Assembly (NCBI RefSeq): GCF_000010305.1
Contig: NC_012489.1
Location: 1,674,001 to 1,738,000 of the forward strand
Length of the DNA stretch: 64,000 bases
Direction: 5' to 3'
From: Gemmatimonas aurantiaca T-27
GTDB taxonomy: Bacteria > Gemmatimonadota > Gemmatimonadetes > Gemmatimonadales > Gemmatimonadaceae
In this document: positions 11,191 to 25,797 of the stretch, in pieces
Layout of the letters: each line of letters starts with the position of its first letter
Numbering within the stretch: the first letter of the stretch is position 1
Program-made: the position numbers and the translations under genes
The notes under the pieces: model-generated
Seen by the model: the letters and a program-made list of their open reading frames with translations, nothing else
What the model was told of the DNA's origin: nothing
The model's database searches: none

Positions 11191-11617
11191 GCCCTCCCCG
11201 TTCGACGACGAGCCAGACGCCCAATGGCTCGTCGTACGTTCGGGTGGTGACATTCTGGGCATTCCCATCGCTCAGGTGCGTGAGGTGGTGCGCCCGGTCG
11301 GCCTGCGCCCGGTACCCGGTGCCCCCTCGATCCAGGCCGGGATCGTCAATGTCCGGGGGGCAATTGTCACCGTCCTGGACCTGCAGGCCCTCCGCACGGG
11401 AGTACGTGCCGTCACGCCCGGGTCAATCGTCCTGCTCTCGTACGGTACCCGAATGCTCGGGTTGGCCGTTGATGCGGTGCATGACGTGCGGGTGATGGAC
11501 GACGAGGCCAAGGCTCCAGGAGCCGGGGCTGCGCTGGACCTTCCTGACGTGATGCCGCTGGACGCCGTGGCCCTGTGCGCGCGGCACATGCATTCAGTCG
11601 AGGAGAGGGAACGGTGA
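11171..11617 (+). CDS. cheW: CheW-like chemotaxis coupling protein (start uncertain, non-canonical)
   Basis: A single CheW domain that would link CheA to receptors. The domain begins with 'WLVVRSGGDILGIPIAQVREVVRPVG', then 'GIVNVRGAIVTVLDL', and ends 'RHMHSVEERER'. The first canonical in-frame start is GTG 11276, which would remove the first beta strands (residues before 'REVV'). The frame is open back to 11069, but it contains no ATG, GTG or TTG before 11276. ATT at 11171 or CTG at 11246 are the only plausible initiators for an intact domain. Coordinates use ATT 11171 as a hypothesis. The stop overlaps cheY (GTGA at 11614-11617). Confidence 0.7.
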   Translation: MSTTPTEPSPFDDEPDAQWLVVRSGGDILGIPIAQVREVVRPVGLRPVPGAPSIQAGIVNVRGAIVTVLDLQALRTGVRAVTPGSIVLLSYGTRMLGLAVDAVHDVRVMDDEAKAPGAGAALDLPDVMPLDAVALCARHMHSVEERER

Positions 11618-11979
11618 GCCAGACAGTACTGATCTGCGACGACGCGATCTTCATGCGCACGATGGTGGGGGACATCCTCACCCAGGCAGGATACGAAGTC
11701 GTCGGTGAAGCCGAAACCGGCATTCAGGCCGTGGAGAAGTACAAGCATTTGCGCCCCGACCTCGTGACGATGGACATCGTCATGCCGGACATGGGTGGTA
11801 TCGATGCCGTTCGCGAAATCACGAAACACGATCCCACCGCGAAGATCCTGATGTGCAGCGCGATGGGACAGCAGGCCCTGGTCGTGGAGGCCATTCAGGC
11901 CGGTGCCAAAGATTTTGTGGTGAAGCCGTTCCAGCCGAGTCGTGTGCTGGAAGCGGTGAACCGCGTGCTCGCCGCCTGA
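11614..11979 (+). CDS. cheY: CheY-like single-domain response regulator
   Basis: A 121-residue receiver domain with no output domain. Acidic residues 'CDDA' near the N-terminus, the phospho-acceptor Asp in 'LVTMDIVMPDMGG', the switch residue in 'LMCSAMGQ' and Lys in 'DFVVKPFQ' are all present, so it should be phosphorylated by CheA. GTG 11614 overlaps the cheW stop and is preceded by the purine-rich GAGGAGAGGGA at 11600-11610, a strong ribosome-binding site. Lack of an output domain points to an effector acting by protein-protein contact, like CheY. Confidence 0.93.
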   Translation: MSQTVLICDDAIFMRTMVGDILTQAGYEVVGEAETGIQAVEKYKHLRPDLVTMDIVMPDMGGIDAVREITKHDPTAKILMCSAMGQQALVVEAIQAGAKDFVVKPFQPSRVLEAVNRVLAA

Positions 11980-12013: not shown

Positions 12014-13993
12014 ATGATGGACGCGTCCGCGACGGGCGCGGCGCGCTATGCCGCGCTCTTTCAGTCGGAGTCGCGCGAACATCTCGATGAACTCGATGTC
12101 GCGTTACTTGCGTTGGAGCGCGCGCCTGCGTCACCCGATGTCAGCGCACATGTCGCCACGCTGTTTCGTGGCATGCACACCATCAAAGGCATGGCTGCCG
12201 CGATGGGTTATGCCGTCGTTGAACGGTTGGCGCATGCACTCGAGTCGCGATGTGAGCCGCTGCGCAGTGGCGCAGAGCCGGTCAGCGTCGATGCCATGAC
12301 CCTGTTGTTCGATGGCACCAGCGCGTTGCGTGTCTCCATCGATCGCGCCGCCCTTGGCCGTGAGGATACCGGCGATGAAGAGCGTGTGACGGCACTGGTG
12401 GCGGCATTGCGTGCCACATCACCAGACGGGCTTCGCGCCTCGGTCTCCGGCGCGCCGGCACCGGTGACCGCGGCATCCGTCACCGCGACATCGGCCACGC
12501 CATCGCGCGGCCTCACCCCGTCGGTGGCCGCTCGCGTGGTGGAGATCCGCCTGAGCGACGACTGCCCGCTCAAGGGCGTCCGGGCCATGATCGTGGCCGC
12601 GAAGTTGGGTGCCCTCGGTCAGGTGGGACAGGCGACGCCGCCGCAGGAGCGCTGGCAGGACGATGCGTTCGACGGCGTCTTCAGTGTGCTGTTGACGAGC
12701 GACGCTGGCGATGACGCGCTGGTGGATGCGGCGCGCAGTGCGGGCGATGTGGCGCGGGTGCAGGTGCGTGCGCACGTGGCCGAGGTGGCAAGCACCGCGG
12801 CACCGGTGCGCACGGTGCGACTCGACGCTCGTCGTCTCGACACACTGCTCGATCTGGTTGGTGAACTGGTGATCTCTCGCGATCGCCTGCTCCGGGCCAT
12901 CGAGGCGATGGAGCAACCGGATCGGCAGGTGATTGCCGCCGCCCGCGACGCGGCGCGGCTGGTCAGTGTTATGCAGGAAGAGGTGCTGCAAACGCGCCTG
13001 CAACCGGTGTCCCAGGTGTTCGATCGCTTCCCGCGTCTGGTGCGCGATGTCGCACACGAACTCGGCAAGGACGTGAATTTCCTGATGGAGGGCCGCGAGA
13101 TCGAACTCGATCGTGCGTTGCTCGATGCCATCGGCGATCCGATTCTGCATCTGCTGCGCAACGCACTCGATCACGGCGTGGAGGATAGTGAAACACGTCG
13201 CGCTGCGGGCAAGGCGCCAGCGGGTGAACTCATTCTGCGTGCCGCCCGCGATCGGGGCACCATCGTGATCCAGGTGCAGGACGATGGACGGGGGATCGAT
13301 CGACTGGCCGTGTTGCGCAGGGCGCAGCATCAGGGGCTGGTGTCCATGTCGGAAACCACGCTGACCGATGAAGCGCTCTTGCCGCTGGTTTCGCGGGCCG
13401 GGTTCTCCACCGCGCATGCGGTCACGAACCTCTCCGGTCGTGGCGTGGGCGTGGATGTGGTGAGCACCCGCGTGCGCGCTCTCGGCGGGCAAGTGGAGCT
13501 GGAAACGCTGGAAGGGGAGGGCACCGTGTTCACCCTGCGCCTGCCCGCCACGCTGGCCATCACACGTGCGCTGCTGGTGGAAGTGCAGGGTGAGACCTTC
13601 GCCATTCCCGCCGTCAATGTGGAGGAAGCCTTGGCGTATCACGACGCCCTGGAAGTGGCGCCGCATGCGTTGGCGGCGGCTGGCCACCGCAGTGCCGGAG
13701 CCCGGGCCATCACCGTGCGCGACGAGATCGTTCCACTGGTGGCGTTGGATGAGTACTTCGGGCTCGATCAGTCGTCCATTTCCCGGAGGGGCGAAGACCG
13801 GGAGCGGCACGTCGCGTTGGTCGAAGCCGGTGGTCGACGCGCGGCGCTTCTGGTCGATGCGTTGGTCGCACAGCAGGACATCGTGGTGAAGCCGCTCGAC
13901 GTGGTGCAGGGGGCCGCGCCGTGGTTCAGCGGAGCCACGGTGCTGGGTGACGGCACGCCGGCGCTCATCGTCGATGTGGCGAGCATCGTATAG
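12014..13993 (+). CDS. cheA: Chemotaxis histidine kinase CheA
   Basis: A 659-residue CheA. P1 is an Hpt domain with the phospho-acceptor His55 in 'LFRGMHTIKGMAAAMGY'. A variable Ala/Thr-rich linker and a P2-like domain follow (~180-265). P3 is the dimerisation region ('RLDTLLDLVGELVISRDRLL'). P4 is the ATPase with 'LLHLLRNALDHGVED', 'VQDDGRGID' and 'GRGVGVDVV'. P5 is a CheW-like domain (~510-659). The modules are in standard order and none is missing. ATG 12014 is 34 bases after cheY. cheC follows after 58 bases. It should autophosphorylate and pass phosphate to the adjacent CheY and to CheB. Confidence 0.97.
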   Translation: MMDASATGAARYAALFQSESREHLDELDVALLALERAPASPDVSAHVATLFRGMHTIKGMAAAMGYAVVERLAHALESRCEPLRSGAEPVSVDAMTLLFDGTSALRVSIDRAALGREDTGDEERVTALVAALRATSPDGLRASVSGAPAPVTAASVTATSATPSRGLTPSVAARVVEIRLSDDCPLKGVRAMIVAAKLGALGQVGQATPPQERWQDDAFDGVFSVLLTSDAGDDALVDAARSAGDVARVQVRAHVAEVASTAAPVRTVRLDARRLDTLLDLVGELVISRDRLLRAIEAMEQPDRQVIAAARDAARLVSVMQEEVLQTRLQPVSQVFDRFPRLVRDVAHELGKDVNFLMEGREIELDRALLDAIGDPILHLLRNALDHGVEDSETRRAAGKAPAGELILRAARDRGTIVIQVQDDGRGIDRLAVLRRAQHQGLVSMSETTLTDEALLPLVSRAGFSTAHAVTNLSGRGVGVDVVSTRVRALGGQVELETLEGEGTVFTLRLPATLAITRALLVEVQGETFAIPAVNVEEALAYHDALEVAPHALAAAGHRSAGARAITVRDEIVPLVALDEYFGLDQSSISRRGEDRERHVALVEAGGRRAALLVDALVAQQDIVVKPLDVVQGAAPWFSGATVLGDGTPALIVDVASIV

Positions 13994-14051: not shown

Positions 14052-14672
14052 ATGAACGCCATCCGGTCACTGAAGACCATTCAGTTGGACGCGCTGCGTG
14101 AAACGGCCAATATCGGCGCGGGTCACGCGGCCACGGCGTTGTCGCAGATGACCGGCAGCACCATCATGATCAAGGTGCCTGCTATCAGCATTGCGAGCAT
14201 CGAAGAGTTGCCCACCCAATTTGCGGCTGACGAAGAGCCGGTCGCCGCCGTGATGATGCACATGCTGGGTGATCTCTCCGGGCGCACCCTGCTGGTGTTC
14301 CCGAAGCCCACGGTGATGCGTCTCGCCGAATTGATGTTGCGACGCCCGGTCGGTTCGTCGGTGGCGTTCAGCGAACTCGAGACGTCGGCCATCAAGGAAG
14401 CCGGGAACATCCTGAGCGGTGCCTACATGAATGCGCTCAGTGATTTCCTGGGCATGCTGCTGCTGCCGTCGCCACCGACCATGGTCGTGGACATGGCTAC
14501 GGCGGTGCTCACCAGCGCATTCAGTGAGTTCTCCGCGGATCCCGATGCCGTGTTGTGTGTGGAGAGCGAATTCCTGCTCAGGGAGATGCAGCAGACGTTG
14601 CGCGGCTTCTTCTTGCTGCTCCCGGATCCGGCATCATTGCAGGTGATGCTGCGCGCGCTGCGCCTCGCCTGA
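14052..14672 (+). CDS. cheC: CheC-like CheY-P phosphatase
   Basis: A 206-residue member of the CheC/CheX/FliY family. The two phosphatase helices are present: 'LRETANIGAGHAATALSQM' near residue 16 and 'IKEAGNILSGAYMNALSDFLG' near 115, each with the E-x-x-N catalytic pair. Such proteins dephosphorylate CheY-P, and CheC activity is often increased by CheD, which is encoded about 8 kb downstream in the same cluster. ATG 14052 has GGGAG four bases upstream. The longer open frame from 13947 is cheA read-through in another frame and is not used. Confidence 0.92.
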   Translation: MNAIRSLKTIQLDALRETANIGAGHAATALSQMTGSTIMIKVPAISIASIEELPTQFAADEEPVAAVMMHMLGDLSGRTLLVFPKPTVMRLAELMLRRPVGSSVAFSELETSAIKEAGNILSGAYMNALSDFLGMLLLPSPPTMVVDMATAVLTSAFSEFSADPDAVLCVESEFLLREMQQTLRGFFLLLPDPASLQVMLRALRLA

Positions 14673-14689: not shown

Positions 14690-17446
14690 ATGACCCACAC
14701 GGTCCCACACGGCACTGCGACGAACGCTTCTTCGCATCCCGTTGCCCGCCCACCGGCTGGGCGTGACGTGGAATTGCTGCGTGCGATGCTCGATCGCGTC
14801 GACCAGCAGGATCCCGGCGCGTTCAACAATCTGGGGGTGCTGTACCACACACGTGGTCTGCACGCCGAGGCCGTCGAGGCTTTCCTGCGTGCGCTCGCTC
14901 TCGATCCGCGTATGCGCACCGCGGCGCGCAATCTCGAACTGGCGGCTGCCAGTCCTGGCGCGTGCGATGATCGTCTGGCCGGTCTTCAGCAGCGGATCGC
15001 CGCCGACCCGGACGACCGCGAGGCGCTGCGCGAGCAGGCACACCTGACGCGGGTCATCGGACGCATCCCCGACGCCGTGCGCCAGCTCGACGCCCTCATC
15101 GCCGAAGATCCTGACGATGGCGAGGCACTCTTCGAGCGGGGGCTGATCGAACAACGGGCGGGTGATTTGCGTCGCGCCCAGCGCTGGTTTGAACGCGCGG
15201 TGAACGCCGGTGCGGTGTCCGATGCCCGGCTGCATCTGGCCGAGGTCCTGTATCAGCGCGGACAGAATGAGCAGGCACTGGAGCTGCTCGACCAACTGCT
15301 CGCGGACTCACCGCGACATGCCGACGCACATCTGCTGCGCGGGTTCCTGCTGGGCGATATGGGACATCACGAGCGCGCGATGCAAGCCACACGGCGGGCT
15401 GCGGAGCTCAACCCGGCACTGGAGACCGTGCAGAGTGATCTCTCCATCGACAGTGGGTCTACGGCCTTGCTGAACGCCTCATCGGTGATGGTGGTCGATC
15501 CCGATGGAGCGCTCGCACGGTACGGACTCGGGTTGGCGTTTCGGCAACGGGGATACTTCCGTGAGGCGCGCGCCGAGTTCGAGCGGGCGATCGTTCACGG
15601 CGAAGACGAGCGGCTGGTACAGCACGCGCTGGCTGAACTCGACCTGATCGATGGCAATTCTGCCGGTGCGCAGGCGCGCTATGAACACCTGCTTGCCGAG
15701 CAGGAGAGTGCCCGCTGGTGGAACGAGCATGGGGTGGCATTGCATCAGGGCGGAAATGTGGCCTCGGCGGCGGATAGCTACCGACGGGCGCTGCGCATCG
15801 ATCCCCGCGATGCGCTGGCATACAACAACCTCGGCGTGGCCCTGGCCGATCGTGGCGACACCAATGCGGCACGAGAGGCGCTGACACGATCCGCGGAACT
15901 CGATCCGACGTTTGTGCGCGCACGTCGCAATCTGGCGTGTCTGCTGTCGTGGAACGGGGAAGGACTGGCGGCGCTCGATTTGCTTCGAGAGCTGGTGGAG
16001 TTTCATCCGCGTGATGCGGAGGCCTGGCACGCCATCGGCCTCGTGTTTGTCTCACTGGAGCGGTTGATCGACGCACGCGAAGCCTTTGTGAAGGCCATCG
16101 AGTTGCACGCACGCCATGCGGAAGCCCGCTTTGCGTTGGCCGATGTGCTCGATCGTCTTGGCGACCAGGACGGCGCGGCCCGTGAGACGGAACAGGCGCT
16201 GGTGATCTCCCCCGTGCGTGCCGATGCCCGGCTGACCGTGGGCATCGAGTTGCAGTGGGAATGCCCCGATGCCGTGGGTCGGGTGGACTTGCTGCGCTTG
16301 TCGGGTGGTGTACCGCTGGTCGGTGTGTCGGTGGACGAGATGCAGGTCAGCGGACTGTTGCCGGAGCAGCCGGCGCTTGCCGTCGCGCAGACGACACTGG
16401 AGCGCGCACGCACCGAGTGTGATACGGCCGACGCCTTTGCCGAACGCACGCTGCACGGGGAGGCCGTGGAACGCTATCAGCGCAGCCGCGAGTTGGTGCA
16501 CGGTCTGGAAGACCGTGATGCCGCAGCGGTCTGGCGTCGGGCGGCAATCGGCGAGGCGCGCTCGCGGTGTCTGCTGCAGCGCGCGGCCACGGCGCGTCCA
16601 CTACTGGACACACTGAGCACGCAGACTCCGGACGATTCCGAGGTGCTCGCGCTCACGGCGGCGAGTCTGGGCGATGGATCGGGCGAGACGGCCGATGCCG
16701 ATCGGCACGCGTCCCGCCACACGCTGCTGCGGTTGCTCAAGCAGGACGTGATGAGCCCGGCGTTGCTGCATTTCGCCGGTGATGTGTCGTTGCAGATCGC
16801 CGATCGAACGCTGGCGCTGGGATTCTATCGTCGCGCACTCTCCCGCGACCCGATGCGTCCCACGCCACGGGTGGCGATCGCGCGTTTGCTGCGCGAGCAA
16901 GGCGATTTGCTCGCCGCGCGGTTGGAAATTGTGGCCGCTCTTGCCGTGGCGCCGGGCTGGCGGGAGGCCCGACTGGAACTGGCCCGTTTGCATCGGGACG
17001 CGGCACGTCTCGATGAGGCGCGTCTGGTGCTCGTGACATGCCTGGCCGACGTGCCCACCGATCTGATCGCCCTCGAACTACTCGCCGGTGTGCTCGTGGC
17101 GGAAGAACGGGACGACGATGCGCGCGTGGTGGTGGATCGCTTGCTCCGGCACGATCCATCGCGGAGTGCCGCATTGTGGTTCGATGGCGTGCTCCTGGCG
17201 CGACAGGCCCGCATGCGGGACGCGCTGGCCAGATGGACACGTGTGGCCAACGATGTCGAAGGCGGCGTATGGCGCGAACGGGCGCAGGCCGCTCTCGAAC
17301 AGGCGCGCGGTTTTGCGTTGACGGAAGAAGCCCGTGCAACCACGGCGCTCCGTGCGCACACCGAGTCGCCTGCTGATGGTGTAGCACCTGACGCGCTCGC
17401 GGCGGACAGCAGCGCGCAGGCCGTGCTGACCTGGCAAGTGGCCTGA
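14690..17446 (+). CDS. Large TPR-repeat protein of the chemosensory cluster
   Basis: A 918-residue soluble protein made of many tetratricopeptide repeats, recognisable from units such as 'FNNLGVLYHTRGLHAEAVEAF', 'ALAYNNLGVALADRGDTNAA' and 'AWHAIGLVFVSLERLIDAREAF'. No signal peptide or membrane segment is seen. TPR arrays act as protein-docking scaffolds, so a role assembling Che, MglA or DUF4388 partners is plausible but inferred. The ATG at 14690 is 17 bases after cheC; the longer frame back to 14555 overlaps cheC. DUF4388 gene 17464-18492 follows after 17 bases. Confidence 0.85.
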   Translation: MTHTVPHGTATNASSHPVARPPAGRDVELLRAMLDRVDQQDPGAFNNLGVLYHTRGLHAEAVEAFLRALALDPRMRTAARNLELAAASPGACDDRLAGLQQRIAADPDDREALREQAHLTRVIGRIPDAVRQLDALIAEDPDDGEALFERGLIEQRAGDLRRAQRWFERAVNAGAVSDARLHLAEVLYQRGQNEQALELLDQLLADSPRHADAHLLRGFLLGDMGHHERAMQATRRAAELNPALETVQSDLSIDSGSTALLNASSVMVVDPDGALARYGLGLAFRQRGYFREARAEFERAIVHGEDERLVQHALAELDLIDGNSAGAQARYEHLLAEQESARWWNEHGVALHQGGNVASAADSYRRALRIDPRDALAYNNLGVALADRGDTNAAREALTRSAELDPTFVRARRNLACLLSWNGEGLAALDLLRELVEFHPRDAEAWHAIGLVFVSLERLIDAREAFVKAIELHARHAEARFALADVLDRLGDQDGAARETEQALVISPVRADARLTVGIELQWECPDAVGRVDLLRLSGGVPLVGVSVDEMQVSGLLPEQPALAVAQTTLERARTECDTADAFAERTLHGEAVERYQRSRELVHGLEDRDAAAVWRRAAIGEARSRCLLQRAATARPLLDTLSTQTPDDSEVLALTAASLGDGSGETADADRHASRHTLLRLLKQDVMSPALLHFAGDVSLQIADRTLALGFYRRALSRDPMRPTPRVAIARLLREQGDLLAARLEIVAALAVAPGWREARLELARLHRDAARLDEARLVLVTCLADVPTDLIALELLAGVLVAEERDDDARVVVDRLLRHDPSRSAALWFDGVLLARQARMRDALARWTRVANDVEGGVWRERAQAALEQARGFALTEEARATTALRAHTESPADGVAPDALAADSSAQAVLTWQVA

Positions 17447-17463: not shown

Positions 17464-18492
17464 ATGGGAATCGAAGGACGCCTTCGCGATCTCGGACTGA
17501 CCGACGTGTTGCAGTTGCTGTCCGGTGGTCGTAAGAGTGGCACACTGTACTGTGACGCCCCGCTGCTCGGCCGTCGGATCCGCCTCGGTTTTTTGCAGGG
17601 GCAGATCGTGGAGGCCGTCATCGATGACGCCACGACCGGAACCAGTCGGGCGGTGACAACGAACGACATCCGCGAAGTGGTGCATGAGGGGCTGCGTTGG
17701 CGCGACGGCAGTTTCCGGTTCGCCTCGGGCGAGGTGCCGAGCGCGCAATCGTCGATCCGGGTGGCCGTGGAGCCGCTGCTCATGGATAGTGCGCGGCAAG
17801 CCGAGGTCTGGTCCCGTATCGAGGGCCGCGTGTCGCATGCCCGCGTGGTGCCGACGTTCATCGACATCGAACCCGAGCAGTTGCCTCTGCTTCGCCTGTC
17901 CTCGCAGCAGTGGGAGATCCTGACCCACATCGATGGTGAGCGGGATCTGGTCGCCATCGCGGAGGTGATGGACCGGGAGTTGACGGAGACCGCGGAGCTG
18001 GTCCACGACCTCATCGTGGCGGGACTGCTGGTCTTGCGCGAGGCCGCACCGGTTCCGCGGCGCAATCCCACACCGCCGGTGAGCCCGGTCATAGCGGGCG
18101 CCAACGATCTGTGGATCCCCGGGGCCGACCCGGAGGACGCCGAAGCGCACTTTGGCGAGGACCAAGACGACACCGTGTTCGATCCGGTGCAGTGGGGGGT
18201 GTTCACGGACAATGGCTTGCCACGGCGATCCACACCCTGGCCGCCGCCGCGCGTTGCCCCACCGCTTCCTGAGCCGTCCTTGGATCAGAGAGAACTGGTC
18301 GGTGTGGCAGAAGGGCGGGACGGTCCTCTGTTGCAGCGGCTCGGGGACGACTGTGCCCGTCGGGGTGACCTGGCGTCCGCGATCTCGCATTGGGCCGATG
18401 CGCTCGATGCTACGGTGCCCGTGGCCGATGTGAATCGGGTGCGCGAAGTGATCTCACTCGCCACTCGACTGCACGCGCTGCTGCAGCCGTAG
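17464..18492 (+). CDS. DUF4388 (PATAN-like) domain protein
   Basis: A 342-residue protein whose N-terminal ~100 residues match the DUF4388 pattern: 'GRLRDLGLTDVLQLLSGGRKSGTL', then 'RIRLGFLQGQIVEA' and a 'WRDGSFRF' strand. The middle part (~140-200) looks like a winged-helix or tandem helical element ('WEILTHIDGERDLVAIAEVM'). The C-terminus ends in a short helical pair after an acidic, Pro-rich linker. DUF4388 domains are common next to Che, MglA/MglB and response-regulator genes in delta-proteobacteria-like and cyanobacterial systems (PATAN), where they act as adaptors. No catalytic motif is visible. A second DUF4388 gene lies at 21025. Confidence 0.82.
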   Translation: MGIEGRLRDLGLTDVLQLLSGGRKSGTLYCDAPLLGRRIRLGFLQGQIVEAVIDDATTGTSRAVTTNDIREVVHEGLRWRDGSFRFASGEVPSAQSSIRVAVEPLLMDSARQAEVWSRIEGRVSHARVVPTFIDIEPEQLPLLRLSSQQWEILTHIDGERDLVAIAEVMDRELTETAELVHDLIVAGLLVLREAAPVPRRNPTPPVSPVIAGANDLWIPGADPEDAEAHFGEDQDDTVFDPVQWGVFTDNGLPRRSTPWPPPRVAPPLPEPSLDQRELVGVAEGRDGPLLQRLGDDCARRGDLASAISHWADALDATVPVADVNRVREVISLATRLHALLQP

Positions 18493-18545
18493 CGCGACCG
18501 TCGTCTCACGCGTCAGTCTCTCGCCACGCGAAGAGGAGCGGGCGC

Positions 18546-19235
18546 ATGCCCATTGTCGATCACGCCACCCGGCTGATCACCTGCAAACTGGTCTACTACG
18601 GACCTGGTCGGTCCGGCAAGACGACCAATCTGACATACCTGCATTCGGCATTGCCGCATGAGCAGGTGGGCTCGCTCACGTCCCTCGCTACCCGTCGCGA
18701 CCGCACGCTGTTCTTCGACTACCTCCCCGTCGACCTCGGCACCGTGGGGGCGTACCGCGTGCGGTTTCAGCTCTACACGGTACCCGGACAGCCATACTAT
18801 CGGGCCATTCGTCAGTTGGTGCTGCAGGGCGCCGATGGCGTGGCGTTTGTGGCCGACAGCCAGAGCCATCGCTGGGAAGACAACATCGAGAGTCTGCAGG
18901 ACATGCACGCGAATCTTGCCGAACATGGCGTGGATGCCCGCGCGCTCCCGATCGTGATGCAGTACAACAAGCAGGATCTGCCCTCGTCGCTGGCCGCCAG
19001 TGTGGCAGAGCTGTCGGTGGCACTCAATTTCCGCGCGGTGCCGGAGTTCGCCGCCGATGCCCTGACCGGTGTGGGTGTATTCGACACGCTGCGGTCGCTC
19101 GGCATGCGTGTGCTGCGACGCCTGGGAGCGGATGATGGCACGGCCGCAGGCCAGCGCGCCGCGGCGGCCATGCGCACGCCGCTGCATGTGCCGGCAATCA
19201 ACGCGGTGGTGACGACCTCCGGAGCGGCGGCATGA
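18546..19235 (+). CDS. mglA: MglA-like small Ras-family GTPase
   Basis: A 229-residue small GTPase. The P-loop 'GPGRSGKTTN' is at 19-28, the switch region 'LFFDYLPVDLG' and 'YTVPGQPYY' match the MglA/Arl-like G3 motif (with Pro-Gly-Gln), and 'QYNKQDLP' is G4. MglA sets cell polarity and gliding direction in Myxococcus. An Ala-rich extension of ~35 residues follows the GTPase fold. ATG 18546 is preceded by AAGAGGAGCGGG. No MglB (Roadblock) gene is adjacent, so the GTPase-activating partner must be elsewhere or be one of the neighbouring DUF4388/TPR proteins. Its stop overlaps the next start (ATGA at 19232). Confidence 0.92.
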   Translation: MPIVDHATRLITCKLVYYGPGRSGKTTNLTYLHSALPHEQVGSLTSLATRRDRTLFFDYLPVDLGTVGAYRVRFQLYTVPGQPYYRAIRQLVLQGADGVAFVADSQSHRWEDNIESLQDMHANLAEHGVDARALPIVMQYNKQDLPSSLAASVAELSVALNFRAVPEFAADALTGVGVFDTLRSLGMRVLRRLGADDGTAAGQRAAAAMRTPLHVPAINAVVTTSGAAA

Positions 19236-21010
19236 CGTCCGCCCTGGATCGGAAGTTGCGCTTCGACACGTTTGTGGTGGGGGGCTCCAATCGGCTCGCC
19301 GCATCGGCCGCGCGTGCGGTGGCCGATGCGCCCGGTCAGGCCTACAATCCGCTGTTCGTGTATGGCGAATCCGGGCGCGGGAAAACGCACCTCGTGGCGG
19401 CGATCGCCAATCGGGCACAGGAGAACCAGCCGGATTTGCGCGTGCTGTTCTCCTCCGGTGAAGAGGTGGCGGAACATCTGCATCAATCCATCGCGAGTGG
19501 ACAGCCCCAGCGGTTTCTCGAGCACTATCAGCAGGCCGATCTGCTGATCCTCGACGATGTCCAGTTCCTCACAGGTCAGCGCGAGACGCAGAGTGAGTTG
19601 CTGCGATTGCTCAATGTGCTCATGCGCGCCGGTCAGCAGTTGGTGTTCACCAGCGACCGGCAGCCAGCCGACATTCCCGATGTCGATCAGCGCCTGTTGT
19701 CGCGCTTGTCCGGTGGATTGGTGGTGGACGTAGGCTCGCCGGACTTCGAGATGCGCCTAGCCATCCTGCGCAACGTCGCCGTGGAGCGACGCACGGATTT
19801 TGCGAGCGGTGTACTCGATGAAGTGGCCCGGCTGCCCTTCGCCAATGTGCGGGAATTGAAAGGGGCCCTGAACAAACTGTCGGCGTATCAGCAGCTCGAA
19901 GGGCAGCCCGTGAAGGCCGACGATGTGCGCGCCATCGTGGGCGAGCGGAGCACAGCGCCCGCCACCACCCCGGGGGGATCGCTGGCCGTGGGCACGCGCT
20001 CTTCGCCGTTGCCGGGGCGCATCGAGGCCATCATTCCTGCGGGCACCGATTACGAGGGGTTTCTCGCGGACGTGCTCAATGAGGTGGAATCGCGCGTCGA
20101 GCCGTGGCGGGTGAAGCTTGGCGACGCCATCGCGCACTGGCGTCAGATGGGCTACGTCGTGCGTGTGCTCGAGCGGGCCGTCGCGCTACCGACGGCGCCG
20201 GATGTCGACGGTCTGCTCAACGCCTATGGAGTGGCGGTGGAGCGACTGCGGCAACTCGAACATCACGCCGGCAGCCTCGATGCGTCGCTGCGTGGGCACG
20301 CCGCCTTTCGAAATCCCGAAGCGATTCCCGCCGCGCAGGCGCTGGTGCAGGAGGCCATCGCGGCCGCGTTGCCGCTGCCTGCGCCGTCGCCGGTCTTTAC
20401 GCGTGAGTCGCTCCAGATCAGCACCGGTAACCAACTGGCGCTGCGTGCGGTGGACGCCGTGCTCGAAGAGCCCGGTCGCCGATACAATCCGTTGTTGCTG
20501 CATGGACCCAGTGGAAGTGGCAAGTCGCATACGGTGCATGCCATCGGCAATGCGATGAAACAGGCAGACGGCCGGCGCGCTGTCGCCTGTCTGTCTGCGG
20601 GCACGTTCGTGGAAGAGTTCGTGGCCGCCATGCAGGAAGGTGGTGTGGAGCGCTGGCGTGCGCGGTATCGCGCGGCCGATGTGTTCATCCTCGACGATAT
20701 CCAGGAGTTGGTGGGCAAGGAGCGCACCCAGGACGAACTGTTCCATCTGTTCAATCATCTCGTCAACCGCGGCAGCCAGGTCGTGCTCACCAGCGATCGG
20801 ATCCCGCGCGATCTCAATGGGTTTGCCGACCGTCTCCGTTCGCGCTTTGAAGGTGGACTGGTCGTGGCGCTGCCGGCGCGGGAGCGGGTGCGCGTGGAGC
20901 AACTGGTGGCGCGCGCGCCTGGTGAACTCGATCGGTTCTACGAGGATCGGGAGAAGACGATGTGGGAGTGGCCGGATTTGGGCAGCCGACTCATCGAGGA
21001 ATACCGATGA
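19232..21010 (+). CDS. Protein with two DnaA/Hda-like AAA+ domains, no DNA-binding domain IV
   Basis: A 592-residue protein with two DnaA-type ATPase domains. Domain 1 has 'YNPLFVYGESGRGKTH' (Walker A 45-52), 'LLILDDVQFL' (~104-113), 'LVFTSDRQP' (sensor I), 'RLLSRLSGGL' (box VII/Arg finger) and 'NVRELKGALNKL' (sensor II, 205-216). A ~150-residue helical linker (~240-395) follows. Domain 2 has 'YNPLLLHGPSGSGKSH' (Walker A 425-432), 'VFILDDIQEL', 'VVLTSDRIP' and 'RLRSRFEGGL', then ends without a lid or the helix-turn-helix domain IV. Both nucleotide sites look intact. It is therefore not the replication initiator. The ATGA overlap with mglA suggests a joint function with the GTPase. No experimental role is known to me. 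Confidence 0.9.
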   Translation: MTSALDRKLRFDTFVVGGSNRLAASAARAVADAPGQAYNPLFVYGESGRGKTHLVAAIANRAQENQPDLRVLFSSGEEVAEHLHQSIASGQPQRFLEHYQQADLLILDDVQFLTGQRETQSELLRLLNVLMRAGQQLVFTSDRQPADIPDVDQRLLSRLSGGLVVDVGSPDFEMRLAILRNVAVERRTDFASGVLDEVARLPFANVRELKGALNKLSAYQQLEGQPVKADDVRAIVGERSTAPATTPGGSLAVGTRSSPLPGRIEAIIPAGTDYEGFLADVLNEVESRVEPWRVKLGDAIAHWRQMGYVVRVLERAVALPTAPDVDGLLNAYGVAVERLRQLEHHAGSLDASLRGHAAFRNPEAIPAAQALVQEAIAAALPLPAPSPVFTRESLQISTGNQLALRAVDAVLEEPGRRYNPLLLHGPSGSGKSHTVHAIGNAMKQADGRRAVACLSAGTFVEEFVAAMQEGGVERWRARYRAADVFILDDIQELVGKERTQDELFHLFNHLVNRGSQVVLTSDRIPRDLNGFADRLRSRFEGGLVVALPARERVRVEQLVARAPGELDRFYEDREKTMWEWPDLGSRLIEEYR

Positions 21011-21024
21011 TGGAGACGCGCTGA

Positions 21025-22710
21025 ATGGCCATCCGTGGCAACTTGAGCGAGGCGAGCCTCGCTGACGTGCTGCAATTGCTGGCGCTGGGTCAGAAGACCG
21101 GCTGCCTGAGTATTGCGCGCGAAGGCAGCTTCGGCACCATCCACTTCGCGAGTGGGCGTATTGTGCACGCATCGCTCGTGAATCGTCGCGACCGTCTCGG
21201 GGATCGTCTCGTGCGACTCGGTGTGCTCGCGGCGGACGACCTCACGCGGGTGCTCGCCACGGTGGCGTCCAACGACGATCGCGAACTCGCGCATGCGCTG
21301 CTGGCGCTGGGTACGATCGCGCGCGTGACCATTCTGGCCGAGTACCATACGCAGGTCGAAGAAGCCGTGTATCACCTGTTCGGGTGGACCCATGGCACTT
21401 TCACCTTCGAGCCCGACGATCATCCCATCGAAGAAACGCCGCTGTTTTCAGTCGGTGCCGACTCGTTGTTGCTGGAAGGCGCGCGGCGTGTGGACGAATG
21501 GGCGCTGATTCAAAAGAAGATTCCAAGCCTCGATCTGATCTTCGAGGTGGACGGACTGTTGGTGGCACAGCGCGAGGTGCCGTTGAGCGAAGCGCAGGAG
21601 CGTCTCCTGCCCCTGCTGAATGGCACCCATGATGTGTCCAGCCTCATCGAACGCTCGGGGCTTGGTGAGTTCGAGGTCGGGAAGGCGATCTACGGCTTGC
21701 TCACCGCCGGCTATGTCCAGCGCGTCGGTCGTAGCGCGGCGCGGCGTCAGCCACCACCGGAGAGCCGCGTCGCGGAATACCGGAATCTTGGCATCGCGTT
21801 CTATCGCACCGGCCTGTTGTTCGAAGCGGAGCGCGAATTCCGTCGCGTGCTGGAATTGCGTGACGCCGATGGCATCGCCCGTTTCCATCTGGGTCTCGTG
21901 CACACGCGGCGCGAAGAGTGGCGCGAGGCCGCGGAGGCCTTTGCGCGGGCTGCCGAACAGCCCGAGGCGCCGGCTGCGGTGTTTCACAATCTCGCTTTTT
22001 GCACCGCGCGGCTGGGCGATATCGGACAGGCGAAGCGTCATCTCGACGAAGCGACCCGCCGCGCGGGCGCTCAGCCGGATCCGCGTATTGCCCTGACCGC
22101 AGCGCAGTTTGCGCTTACCGATGGGGACATGGCCGAGGCCGAGGTGCAGTTGGCGCGTGCACGTGCACAGTGGGGAGCCCGACAGCCATCGGCCGCGTGG
22201 TTCCATCTGGCTGGCCTCGCCGCCGCCATCGGCGGAGAGAGTGCGCGCGCCCAGGCCCTGCTCGAAGAAGGGTTGACTGCGCATCCGCATGCCGCGCCGC
22301 TGCACAATAACCTCGCCGTCGTGCAGGAGCGTCGTGGGAGCTACGAAGCGGCCGCGCGCACGGCGGAGCATGCGCTGCTCGAAGACGCCAATTCCGCGCA
22401 CTTGCACAAGAATCTCGGGGACTACCTGTATCGGGGCCAACGCTACGACGAAGCGTTCGACGCGCTGACACGTGTCGTGCGTCTGGCACCGAATCATGGC
22501 CCCGATGTGTACCTCAAGCTGGGGAATGTGCACTACCGGCGCGGTGCACTCGACGACGCTCGGGCTGCCTGGGAGCAGGCGCTCGCGCTCGATCCCGAGA
22601 ACCGGATTGTCCATGCCAACCTGGCTGCACTGCCACCGCGTGCAGACGTGTTGGATGTAGATCGTGACGACATACTGGGCGACGTCGCTCAGGTCGGAGC
22701 TGCCGTCTGA
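21025..22710 (+). CDS. DUF4388-TPR fusion protein
   Basis: A 561-residue protein. Residues 1-~110 form a DUF4388 domain ('GNLSEASLADVLQLLALGQKTGCLSI', 'IHFASGRIVHASL', 'RLGDRLVRLGVL'). A second adaptor-like segment with 'LLPLLNGTHDVSSLIERSG' follows at ~180-230, and then a TPR array (~250-550, for example 'YRNLGIAFYRTGLLFEAEREF' and 'HNNLAVVQERRGSYEAAARTAE'). Related proteins appear in myxobacterial and Gemmatimonadota signalling clusters. No signal peptide, membrane segment or enzyme motif is present. It starts 14 bases after the tandem DnaA-like gene and is probably in the same operon. It combines in one chain the two scaffold types found separately upstream. Confidence 0.84.
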   Translation: MAIRGNLSEASLADVLQLLALGQKTGCLSIAREGSFGTIHFASGRIVHASLVNRRDRLGDRLVRLGVLAADDLTRVLATVASNDDRELAHALLALGTIARVTILAEYHTQVEEAVYHLFGWTHGTFTFEPDDHPIEETPLFSVGADSLLLEGARRVDEWALIQKKIPSLDLIFEVDGLLVAQREVPLSEAQERLLPLLNGTHDVSSLIERSGLGEFEVGKAIYGLLTAGYVQRVGRSAARRQPPPESRVAEYRNLGIAFYRTGLLFEAEREFRRVLELRDADGIARFHLGLVHTRREEWREAAEAFARAAEQPEAPAAVFHNLAFCTARLGDIGQAKRHLDEATRRAGAQPDPRIALTAAQFALTDGDMAEAEVQLARARAQWGARQPSAAWFHLAGLAAAIGGESARAQALLEEGLTAHPHAAPLHNNLAVVQERRGSYEAAARTAEHALLEDANSAHLHKNLGDYLYRGQRYDEAFDALTRVVRLAPNHGPDVYLKLGNVHYRRGALDDARAAWEQALALDPENRIVHANLAALPPRADVLDVDRDDILGDVAQVGAAV

Positions 22711-22777
22711 TGACGCCCGCCACGTGTGAACGTGGAACGGGGTGTCATGCGGTGGTCACCGTCCTGACGCGTCGCGC

Positions 22778-23257
22778 ATGAGTCAGATTGCCGTGGGCTC
22801 TGCCGACTTTGCCATAGGCGTCGGCGATCTGACGCTGGTGACCGTGGGGCTCGGCTCCTGCGTCGCCATCGTGCTGCACGATGCCGAATCCCGCGTAGGG
22901 GCACTGGCGCACGTGCTGTTACCCCATGCGGCGCACACGAGTGGCGTGCACGCCGCTGGCAAGATCGCGTCGTCGGCGGTGCCGGCCATGTTGCAGCAGA
23001 TGCGTGCGGAAGGGTCGACGGGAGAGGTGCAGGCGCGGCTGGTCGGCGGTGCGTCGATGTTCGCCCCCCTCTTGCGACAGGGCGCAATGAGTATCGGTGC
23101 GCGCAATGTGCAGGCGTGTCGGTTGGCCTGCGCCCATCACGGTATTCCGATCGTCGGAGAAGCCGTGGGCGGGGAACGTGGGCGCTCGGTGCGTTTCGAG
23201 GTGCGGACGGGTCGTCTGGCGATTCGCACCGTGCTGGGGCCTGACCTTGTCCTCTGA
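22778..23257 (+). CDS. cheD: CheD chemoreceptor glutamine deamidase
   Basis: A 159-residue CheD. The catalytic Cys28 ('GLGSCVAIVLHD') and His45 ('GALAHVLLPH') with Thr22 reproduce the Cys-His-Thr arrangement of Thermotoga CheD. 'ARLVGGASMF' and 'GEAVGGERGRSVRF' are further signatures. CheD deamidates receptor glutamines and binds CheC, which is also encoded here. No methyl-accepting receptor gene is in the window. ATG 22778 is used. The cheB coding region overlaps its end by 11 bases if the TTG start is right. Confidence 0.94.
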   Translation: MSQIAVGSADFAIGVGDLTLVTVGLGSCVAIVLHDAESRVGALAHVLLPHAAHTSGVHAAGKIASSAVPAMLQQMRAEGSTGEVQARLVGGASMFAPLLRQGAMSIGARNVQACRLACAHHGIPIVGEAVGGERGRSVRFEVRTGRLAIRTVLGPDLVL

Positions 23258-24407
23258 CTCGCTTCCCGTGCGGCGCCGTGTGCTGGTGGTGGACGACAGC
23301 GCGTTCATGCGCCGATTGGTGTCGGATGTGGTGGTGTCGAGCGGAGAATTCGACGTCATCGGCACCGCGAAGGATGGACACGATGCGCTACGTCAGATCG
23401 CCACGCTCGATCCGGATCTTGTCACGCTCGATGTGGACATGCCCGGCCTCGATGGCCTCGCTGCGCTGGATGCCATCATGCAGGATATGCCACGGCCGGT
23501 GGTGATGCTGAGCGCCGGGGGCAGCGATGGCGGTGTGGAAGCCACGCTGCGTGCTCTCGAGCGGGGGGCGGTGGAGTTCGTGCGCAAGCCATCGGGGGCC
23601 ATCAGTCTCGACCTCGAATTGGTGCGCGATCAATTGCTCGAGGCCCTGCGCGCTGCGGCGGTCGTGACGCATGCGCAACTGGTCTCCCGTACCTCCCACC
23701 GGCAGCGCGAATCCGTCGATGTGTTTCCCCGGGCTTCCACGTTGGGGGTGCGTGCAGCGGACGAACGATTGTCACATCCACCCACCGCTGTCGTAGTGAT
23801 GGCTGCCTCCACCGGCGGGCCGGCGGCGCTGGCCGATGTCATTCCGCAGTTGCCGCCCTGGAGAGATGTCGCGGTGCTCGTGGTGCAACACATGCCTGCG
23901 GGATTCACGGCCAGTTTTGCCAAGCGTCTGAGTGCGCGTTCCCGATTGCCGGTGCATGAAGCGGTGGACGGTGAGCCGTTGCGCGCCGGGCAGGTGTATG
24001 TGGCGCCCGGTGGTCTGCATCTGCGTATCGTCGGCACACCCGCGGCGCCTCAGTTGCGCCTCGATGAAACGCCTCCGTTGTGGGGAGTCCGTCCTGCGGC
24101 CGACCATCTGTTCCTCAGTACCGCACACTGCTTTGGCGCCGCCAGCGTAGGGGTGGTGATGACGGGCATGGGACGTGATGCTGCCGAAGGTCTGCAGGCA
24201 ATTCGCCTGGCTGGCGGACTGGGGCTGGTGCAGGACAGCACTACCTGTGTGGTCCCCGGTATGCCGGAGGCGGCGCGTCGGATGGCGGGAGCGGACGCTG
24301 TGGTGCCGTTGCACGAGCTCGCGGCCATGATCACCGCGCATGTCGCCACGCGGCGAAACCGTGGCGCCGCCGACCCGATACCGGCGCTGTCCGTGCCGCG
24401 CCCATGA
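23247..24407 (+). CDS. cheB: CheB chemoreceptor methylesterase/deamidase response regulator
   Basis: A 386-residue CheB. The receiver domain has 'VLVVDDSAFMRRLV' and phospho-acceptor Asp in 'LVTLDVDMPGLDGL'. The C-terminal methylesterase domain has the triad Ser in 'AASTGGPAAL', His in 'VVQHMPAGFT' and Asp in 'GMGRDAAEGL'. All catalytic residues are present, although no CheR methyltransferase gene occurs in the window. TTG 23247 is chosen because GGGG lies 7 bases upstream. GTG 23268 would begin 'MRRRVLVVDD' and is the alternative. The stop overlaps the next gene's ATG (ATGA). Confidence 0.93.
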   Translation: MSSDSLPVRRRVLVVDDSAFMRRLVSDVVVSSGEFDVIGTAKDGHDALRQIATLDPDLVTLDVDMPGLDGLAALDAIMQDMPRPVVMLSAGGSDGGVEATLRALERGAVEFVRKPSGAISLDLELVRDQLLEALRAAAVVTHAQLVSRTSHRQRESVDVFPRASTLGVRAADERLSHPPTAVVVMAASTGGPAALADVIPQLPPWRDVAVLVVQHMPAGFTASFAKRLSARSRLPVHEAVDGEPLRAGQVYVAPGGLHLRIVGTPAAPQLRLDETPPLWGVRPAADHLFLSTAHCFGAASVGVVMTGMGRDAAEGLQAIRLAGGLGLVQDSTTCVVPGMPEAARRMAGADAVVPLHELAAMITAHVATRRNRGAADPIPALSVPRP

Positions 24408-24910
24408 GTAGCGCGCGTTTCCGGTCGGTGCGTGACATCGCCGGCAGCGGCGGTGCGTCGCGGCTGGCGCGGCGTCGGGCTCGACCGGCCGTGGAACGCA
24501 GCACCTTCGTGGTGATTTCTCTGGGCGGCGATCGCATGGCTATCGCGGTAGAATCCGTGGAACGTGTGGTGCGCCCCTTCAGCAGCCTTCCTGTGATGCT
24601 CTATGACGGTCGCCAACTGCCGTATGCCGATCTGGCCAAACCACTGGGACGCGCCGTGCGGTTCGGTGAAGGGGACCAGCGGCGGGTGCTGATCGTGCGC
24701 GACGGCGGGCGACGCTGGGCGGTCCCGGTCGACACGGTACACGAAGTACACGCCATCGAAACCGCGCACGTGCTGCCGATGGATGCCGAAGCCCGCGACG
24801 CCTCCGTGGAAGGTGTGCAGGCGCATTTTGAACGGCAGGGGCATGATGTGCTGGTGGTGGATGCCGTGCGCATCCTGTCGCGCACGGCAGCAGCACGGGC
24901 TCGCACATGA
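24404..24910 (+). CDS. cheW: CheW-like coupling protein, second copy
   Basis: A 168-residue protein with a basic ~35-residue N-terminal extension and then a CheW domain ('STFVVISLGGDRMAIAVESVERVV', 'QLPYADLAKPLG', 'RVLIVRDGGRRWAVPVDTVHEV'). The typical central 'hxNhRG' loop is degenerate ('MLYDGRQLPYADL'), so it is diverged from the first CheW. It overlaps cheB by four bases and the following TPR gene by four bases (ATGA at 24907-24910). It probably couples CheA to a receptor or to another component of this cluster. Confidence 0.82.
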   Translation: MSSARFRSVRDIAGSGGASRLARRRARPAVERSTFVVISLGGDRMAIAVESVERVVRPFSSLPVMLYDGRQLPYADLAKPLGRAVRFGEGDQRRVLIVRDGGRRWAVPVDTVHEVHAIETAHVLPMDAEARDASVEGVQAHFERQGHDVLVVDAVRILSRTAAARART

Positions 24911-25797
24911 ATGCCGGACATGCGCAGATCGCCGAGCGTCTCGACGCACTCGCGCAGGTGCTCCAGGCACTGCAGACGCCAGCCACGCCGGCACCCACGG
25001 TCGATGCCGCAGAGCGGGAGCGCCTCAAACAGGAGATCATCGGCCTGTTCCGGGATGCCGACACGGCGGTGAAAGAAGCGCAGGCGCTCAAGGATGCCGT
25101 GAAGGGGCTGGCCGAACAGTGGAAGGCCGTGGAGCGCCAGCACAGCGCATCGACGCCCGCACGATCCGCCGCTCCCACGGTCTCCGGGCGGATCGATCAT
25201 CTGGGGGCGTCCACCTTCATCGAGAAGGGATGGTCGCGGCTGTCGCTGGGCGATCTCGACAACGCCGAAACCGCCTTGCGTCGTGCACTGGAGCTGGCGC
25301 CGGGCAGCAATGAAGCCGAGACGCTGCTGGGGTGGACGCAGATGCTGCAAGGCCATCTGGACGCGGCGCTGACGTCACTGCGGGCCGTGCTGGGGCGCGA
25401 TGCGTCGCATGCCATGGCTCGCGCCAATCTGGGCTACGTGCGTTGGCGGCAGGGGCAGCACGCCGAAGCCATCGAGCAGCTCGCGACGGTCGTGCGGGCC
25501 GACAGCGACCGGAAGGCCACGCTGTATGCGCACCTCTATCTGGGCATGGTGTACTTCGATCGTGAGATGTACGACGATGCCGAGCGCTTTCACCGGGCGG
25601 CACTCGAACGCGGACCCAATCTGCTGCAGGGCTGGTACGAACTTGGGCGCACCTACTGGTTCAGTGATCGTCGCTCCGAAGCGATGGCTGCGTGGAAAAG
25701 TGGCGCCGAAGCGAACAAGTTCAGTCCATGGGGGAAGCGCTGCGCGGAGTTGCTGGCATCGATCACCGAGGGTGGAGCACCCGCACGCGAGCTCTGA
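24907..25797 (+). CDS. Coiled-coil/TPR protein
   Basis: A 296-residue cytoplasmic protein. The N-terminal ~80 residues are helical and heptad-like ('AERLDALAQVLQAL', 'KQEIIGLFRDADTAVKEAQ'). Residues ~100-285 are tetratricopeptide repeats ('EKGWSRLSLGDLDNAETALR', 'ANLGYVRWRQGQHAEAIEQL', 'HLYLGMVYFDREMYDDAERF', 'GWYELGRTYWFSDRRSEAM'). No catalytic motif is visible. ATGA overlap with the upstream cheW-like gene and ~70-base overlap with the downstream peptidase gene suggest one operon. Confidence 0.82.
   Translation: MNAGHAQIAERLDALAQVLQALQTPATPAPTVDAAERERLKQEIIGLFRDADTAVKEAQALKDAVKGLAEQWKAVERQHSASTPARSAAPTVSGRIDHLGASTFIEKGWSRLSLGDLDNAETALRRALELAPGSNEAETLLGWTQMLQGHLDAALTSLRAVLGRDASHAMARANLGYVRWRQGQHAEAIEQLATVVRADSDRKATLYAHLYLGMVYFDREMYDDAERFHRAALERGPNLLQGWYELGRTYWFSDRRSEAMAAWKSGAEANKFSPWGKRCAELLASITEGGAPAREL

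Follow-up and report, generated by a model that had tools for sequence, protein, structure and literature searches.

In Gemmatimonas aurantiaca T-27, the gene at 19232..21010 encodes a 592-residue protein with two DnaA-type AAA+ domains in one chain. On balance, it is more likely than not an AAA+ switch of DnaA descent, working for a PATAN-TPR signalling scaffold and not in DNA replication. Most likely, this ATP switch is docked on a PATAN-TPR scaffold that responds to c-di-GMP and acts on type IV pili; the docking on PATAN-TPR, the c-di-GMP gating and the pilus output are what we infer. A sequence-only reading of the DNA had proposed a repurposed AAA+ switch in a polarity and che setting. With both halves belonging to the DnaA family of AAA+ proteins, this is still the best reading and is likely right. 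Positions refer to the window, the whole stretch of 64,000 nucleotides that was analysed, and all its features described here lie on the plus strand; the genome is a single contig of 4,636,964 bases.

The tandem gene is supported by its open reading frame, Pfam and NCBIfam matches, an AF2 model and structure superposition. Its start overlaps the stop of mglA (18546..19235) in a shared four-base ATGA, and the sequence-only reading had both the coordinates and this overlap right. Pfam Bac_DnaA (PF00308) matches the first half alone at residues 5-166 (E=4.7e-53) and gives a separate match to the second half (E=7.2e-48), which bears out the DnaA-type motif set read earlier in each half. NCBIfam TIGR00362 DnaA also matches both halves. 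A Pfam scan in three pieces covering the whole protein finds neither DnaA domain I nor domain IV, and the lack of the DNA-binding domain IV had likewise been seen from the letters. An ordinary dnaA is present elsewhere in the genome (G000:C1:449-931, 231.5 bits).

AF2 models AAA1, the linker bundle and AAA2 with confidence, and residues 239-273 and the C-terminus poorly. The pTM is 0.47, and the arrangement of AAA1 relative to AAA2 is not fixed by the model. AAA1 with its lid comprises residues 3-238 (19238..19945). The helical linker bundle at residues 275-379 (20054..20368) has pLDDT mostly >90 and no Pfam match. The linker had been described as 150 helical residues, which is correct for the bundle and wrong for the rest, as residues 239-273 form a disordered stretch ahead of it. 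The AAA2 core, residues 385-548 (20384..20875), retains its arginine-finger side according to residue counts. It has no lid in the window protein, as had been reported, but this does not extend to the family, since lid 2 is present in families f2, f3 and part of f1; lid loss was rejected as a defining trait on this ground. In the domain tree, AAA1 domains and AAA2 domains each cluster, with the exception of one long-branched AAA1 row, and the AAA2 domains are one side of one branch. Because each domain set groups together, a single old duplication explains the pair.

AAA1 is a predicted active ATPase with every catalytic residue retained. Across the class, it has Walker A K51 and Walker B D108 in 46/46 proteins each, the box VII arginine finger R158 in 43/46, and sensor II R207 in 45/46. 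AAA2 has the Walker A lysine in 28/42 proteins across the class, including the window protein, and in 0/12 of f7, where Walker B is mostly lost as well. Its arginine finger R538 is found in 41/42 proteins and in 12/12 of f7; W475 is invariant (42/42) and the W-R-x-R helix is retained. Judged by these residues, AAA2 of f7 appears to be a dead ATPase with a retained arginine finger. In head-to-tail oligomers of DnaA, Arg285 of one protomer touches the ATP bound by its neighbour (PMC5742627). As the AAA2 finger outlasts its own ATP site and the DnaA finger reads the ATP of a neighbour, the best interpretation is that AAA2 donates an arginine finger to AAA1, either in the same chain or in another one. 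In proteins that lack AAA2, AAA1 may form homo-oligomers and rely on its own finger.

The protein ends in a conserved C-terminal tail, EKTMWEWPDLGSRLIEEYR (residues 574-592, 20951..21007), which the earlier reading did not mention and which is defined by residue counts and constraint at the protein level. The consensus E-K-x-V-W-x-W-P-x4-R-x-I-E-E is found at or near the C-terminus of all the AAA+ proteins, with W580 in 46/46, E589 in 45/46, and P581 in 41/46. Mean identity is 47% in the tail and 18% in the stretch just before it. The IEE end of the tail resembles the EEVD ends that bind TPR clamps. A similar role for it was set aside, since f9, L101 and a natural fusion protein have residues beyond the tail.

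The gene downstream encodes a PATAN(DUF4388)-TPR protein of 561 residues (21025..22710), with a PF14332 match (E=1.1e-33; 116.3 bits against a cut-off of 25) and TPR repeats. It follows the AAA+ gene in every locus with a contig reaching that far. PATAN-TPR is the constant neighbour of the AAA+ gene, because f7 keeps the pair without adjacent mglA or che genes. In one genome (L103:2735-5812, minus strand), the AAA+ protein and PATAN-TPR are naturally fused in frame into a protein of 1026 residues, and the PATAN part no longer opens with methionine. The fusion is limited to this genome, and its congener L104 has two separate genes. An AF2 model of the fusion, made from a shallow alignment, has pLDDT of ~30 for the tail and ~50 for PATAN, values too low to demonstrate docking.

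The PATAN domain of the window protein contains a degenerate MshEN insert, a c-di-GMP receptor module, at residues 57-110 (21193..21354). The 24-residue MshEN motif is described as a c-di-GMP receptor (PMC5013675), and the insert of AAA-bearing relatives comprises a pair of such motifs. The MshEN model NF053729, with a cut-off of 38 bits, scores 50-58 bits in six AAA-bearing relatives tested (orthologues of f1, f2, f7, and f8) and 44.6 bits in the L103 fusion. The window insert scores 20.2 bits, below the cut-off, with changed motif residues, and is degenerate in the genus Gemmatimonas. Given this score, c-di-GMP binding by PATAN-TPR is unlikely in G. aurantiaca. The window has a second DUF4388 protein, PATAN1 (17464..18492, PF14332 E=5.5e-19); the PATAN1 proteins of relatives carry an MshEN-like insert, which Gemmatimonas has lost. 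Since this insert is lost as well, the c-di-GMP input seems to be decaying in both PATAN proteins of Gemmatimonas. The title of Makarova et al. 2006, as cited in PMC11580455, refers to an alpha-helical insertion in PATAN, and the MshEN insert would sit at the place of that insertion. The nesting of MshEN inside PATAN suggests that the alpha-helical insertion of PATAN domains, at least here, is a c-di-GMP receptor fold.

The mglA product is a Ras-like GTPase of 229 residues that matches M. xanthus MglA (5ymx) at residues 2-197 in phmmer (E=1.5e-63). In nearly all f1, f2, f3, f5, f8, and f9 loci, the AAA+ gene has an mglA orthologue ahead of it, and the gene pair recurs across many genera, a point on which the sequence-only reading is supported. 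The idea of MglA as the defining partner does not hold, however, as the 11 loci of f7 keep the AAA+ gene with PATAN-TPR and have no adjacent mglA or che genes; MglA as an obligate partner was rejected on the same loci. Most genomes with a cluster MglA, G. aurantiaca included, also have a second, more distant MglA (~57% identical over 160 residues) outside the cluster.

The 5' part of the window cluster has cheW-like (about 11192-11617), cheY-like (11614-11979), cheA (12014-13993), and cheC-like (14052-14672) genes, assigned by sequence reading and conserved order, and a gene for a TPR-repeat protein (14690..17446, start approximate) with TPR matches in conserved order. The 3' part has cheD-like (22742-23257), cheB-like (about 23262-24407), and second cheW-like (24404-24910) genes, named from sequence reading, and a TPR protein gene (24907-25797) supported by Pfam and conserved order. 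The order in f1, f2, f3, and f5 is RluD, cheW, cheY, cheA, cheC, TPR, PATAN1, (Roadblock genes), mglA, AAA+ gene, PATAN-TPR, (cheR), cheD, cheB, further genes, TPR, and a peptidase-like gene, with gaps in individual loci. The f7 loci comprise just RluD, the AAA+ gene, PATAN-TPR and the peptidase-like gene, and f7 genomes nearly always have one MglA copy, located outside the cluster. In relatives, PATAN1 and mglA are separated by three genes of the Roadblock/LC7 type, one of which includes TPR (L047:4985-6755). The corresponding part of the window (17464-19235) has no Roadblock genes, and two are found elsewhere in the Gemmatimonas genome. In f8 (L095, L114, L115), the gap between mglA and the AAA domain is several hundred bases longer; a piece from the extended gap of L095 has no Pfam match.

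The comparison set comprised 83 related loci, and the class survey covered 197 genomes of at least 90% completeness from 90 genera. The tandem AAA+ gene is present in 80/197 genomes and 49/90 genera at E<=1e-66, a threshold that ordinary DnaA does not reach, and it is old in the class. In the fetched loci, domain profiles picked out further versions that are more divergent or have a single AAA domain. A search of genome contigs gave only 3 close relatives, from Gemmatimonadota. The tandem form was not found on plasmids, where no record covers 80% of the query and the annotated matches listed are dnaA, nor in six genomes of f10, another family-level group of the phylum.

One AAA domain together with the linker and the tail occurs in families f8 and f9 and in genus g26 of f1, and three genera (g5, g7, and g24) have no AAA domain. 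In nearly all AAA-less genomes, the place of the AAA+ gene is taken by a gene for a protein of 60-75 residues, consisting of linker helix 1 and the tail. The helix (FLxD...VxxRVE) is recognisable in the small proteins of the AAA-less relatives L078-L087. By sequence comparison, the constant core of the AAA+ protein is the C-terminal tail and the linker helix. The PATAN-TPR proteins of exactly these AAA-less genomes lack the 53-residue MshEN insert. This loss is specific to PATAN-TPR, since the paralogue PATAN1 of the same genomes keeps the insert (37 bits in L078, just below the cut-off). The AAA-less rows form a single clade in the PATAN-TPR tree, and the co-loss of AAA and MshEN therefore counts as one event; only the 0AAA label of this tree is usable, as the AAA1 and AAA2 profiles cross-hit and make the 1AAA and 2AAA labels wrong. 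A candidate second loss in G218 (L088, G218:C2:298000-312000) was rejected. It is one large deletion with an end inside cheY, whose first half now runs directly into the middle of the PATAN domain; everything from cheA through the AAA+ gene is gone. Tail conservation, the L103 fusion and the co-loss of AAA with the MshEN insert together point to PATAN-TPR as the partner.

At least two PilT genes are found in 115/118 genomes with PATAN-TPR and in 19/79 without it (Fisher p=9e-30, phylogeny ignored), an association that is phylogenetically confounded. In Synechocystis, the pilus motor PilB1 is a binding target of PATAN regulators, according to work cited in PMC9090330 and PMC7690835, and M. xanthus MglA acts on pili together with the TPR protein SgmX (PMC11580455). 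These two precedents and the PilT association argue for a pilus output. The G. aurantiaca genome contains 13 GGDEF domains, 11 MCPs, flagellins, and 4 PilT-family genes. Because of the flagellins and MCPs, the output could be either pili or flagella.

In the proposed mechanism, the AAA2 arginine finger would cap the ATP bound in AAA1, either inside one chain or between chains stacked head-to-tail like those of DnaA oligomers. ATP binding and hydrolysis would flip the linker bundle between two states, and the tail, perhaps with linker helix 1, would dock the switch onto PATAN-TPR. In most lineages, the MshEN nested in PATAN would gate the AAA+ switch or report on it. The scaffold, together with MglA and Che proteins where present, would determine how active type IV pilus motors are or where they are placed. 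In the genus Gemmatimonas, where the MshEN motif and the AAA2 lid have decayed, c-di-GMP probably no longer provides an input, and something else would drive the ATP switch. The complete version is a c-di-GMP-gated ATP switch made from a DnaA AAA+ pair and governing a Ras-like polarity and pilus module, with one half as arginine-finger donor and the tail docked on a PATAN[MshEN]-TPR receptor. This version can be put forward only tentatively. The single AAA domain of several relatives counts against the proposed mechanism.

The AAA+ protein may instead be a dedicated ATPase of MglA that acts on it directly, whether as exchange factor, as remodeller or to position cargo, PATAN-TPR being a bystander. 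This is unlikely, even though mglA lies immediately upstream and often overlapping in most families, by four bases in the window. The f7 genomes do without a cluster mglA and nearly always have only one MglA copy, elsewhere in the genome, the natural fusion joins PATAN-TPR and not MglA, and most AAA-less genomes retain mglA, the remnant and PATAN-TPR. An action on DNA or on DnaA itself, as an Hda-like regulator or a nucleic-acid remodeller linking replication or the cell cycle to polarity, also seems quite improbable. AAA1 superposes closely on DnaA domain III (8btg; Z 31.6, rmsd 1.3), and the position of the ssDNA-binding B-motif arginine is Arg in AAA2 (R498, 39/42). In RIDA, a DnaA-like AAA+ protein regulates DnaA, which gives a precedent. 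On the other hand, domains I and IV are missing, the two halves score 91.9 and 72.0 bits with the Hda model TIGR03420 (cut-off 194.8 bits), and the B-motif position is mostly Glu in AAA1 (35/46). The setting in the loci examined is also one of signalling, beside PATAN-TPR and not beside dnaA.

A service to a flagellar Che pathway would make the pilus association indirect and agrees with the flagellins and 11 MCPs of the genome and with the cheW/Y/A/C/D/B genes of the cluster. Against it stand the f7 pair that has no adjacent che genes and the strong link of PATAN-TPR to extra PilT genes, and it is judged improbable. The tail could also be a by-product, its GAG GAG glutamate codons being the Shine-Dalgarno of the PATAN-TPR gene and the remnant ORFs being translational-coupling leaders. 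The E589 codon is GAG in 43/45, and PATAN-TPR starts 1-8 nt past the tail in most loci; these glutamate codons probably also double as a ribosome site. As a full explanation this is very improbable and was rejected on codon variation and distance to the next start. Identical tail residues are encoded by differing codons, which indicates constraint at the protein level, and the tail persists in the fusion and in loci with 20-189 nt between it and the next start. W580 and P581 are near invariant though they lie well upstream of any ribosome site.

The preferred DnaA-derived switch resembles several known systems in part. Like DnaA domain III, both domains score as DnaA and have the same fold, Walker A and B, sensor I and arginine finger, with sensor II in AAA1. 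In contrast to DnaA, the protein has two AAA+ copies per chain and no domains I, II or IV, adds the linker bundle and the tail, and sits in a signalling cluster. Hda, DnaC/DnaI, and IstB also have a DnaA-clan AAA+ domain without the DnaA DNA-binding domain. However, the AAA+ protein is tandem, has a PATAN-TPR partner, and scores far below the curated cut-offs of both Hda and IstB. The M. xanthus system of MglA/MglB and SgmX has in common with the cluster MglA, a TPR scaffold and Che-like input, as well as the Roadblock genes adjoining mglA in relatives, which the Gemmatimonas cluster lost; PMC11580455 names no DnaA-type ATPase for it. The cyanobacterial PATAN regulators of type IV pilus motors (PixE, LsiR, and PixG) likewise place PATAN in che-linked pathways, and PixE binds PilB1 there. 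Their PATAN is fused to a receiver domain, whereas here it is fused to TPR and has a separate AAA+ partner. The MshE/PilB-type ATPases carry MshEN at their N-terminus and share the idea of coupling a c-di-GMP receptor module to an ATPase. Here, MshEN lies in the separate PATAN protein, and the ATPase is a DnaA-type AAA+ and not a pilus or secretion traffic ATPase. Wuichet and Sogaard-Andersen 2014 report PATAN genes near some mglA genes and do not mention DnaA. A search of open-licence papers did not find the AAA+ and partner pair described, which is weak evidence of absence.

DnaA-type ATPases are known from replication and transposition. If the proposal is true, the engine of a replication initiator has gained a new use in motility signalling across a whole bacterial class, and three switch types (ATP, GTP, and c-di-GMP) would be tied to one motility module. 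The natural loss series of two AAA domains, one and none makes the model directly testable.
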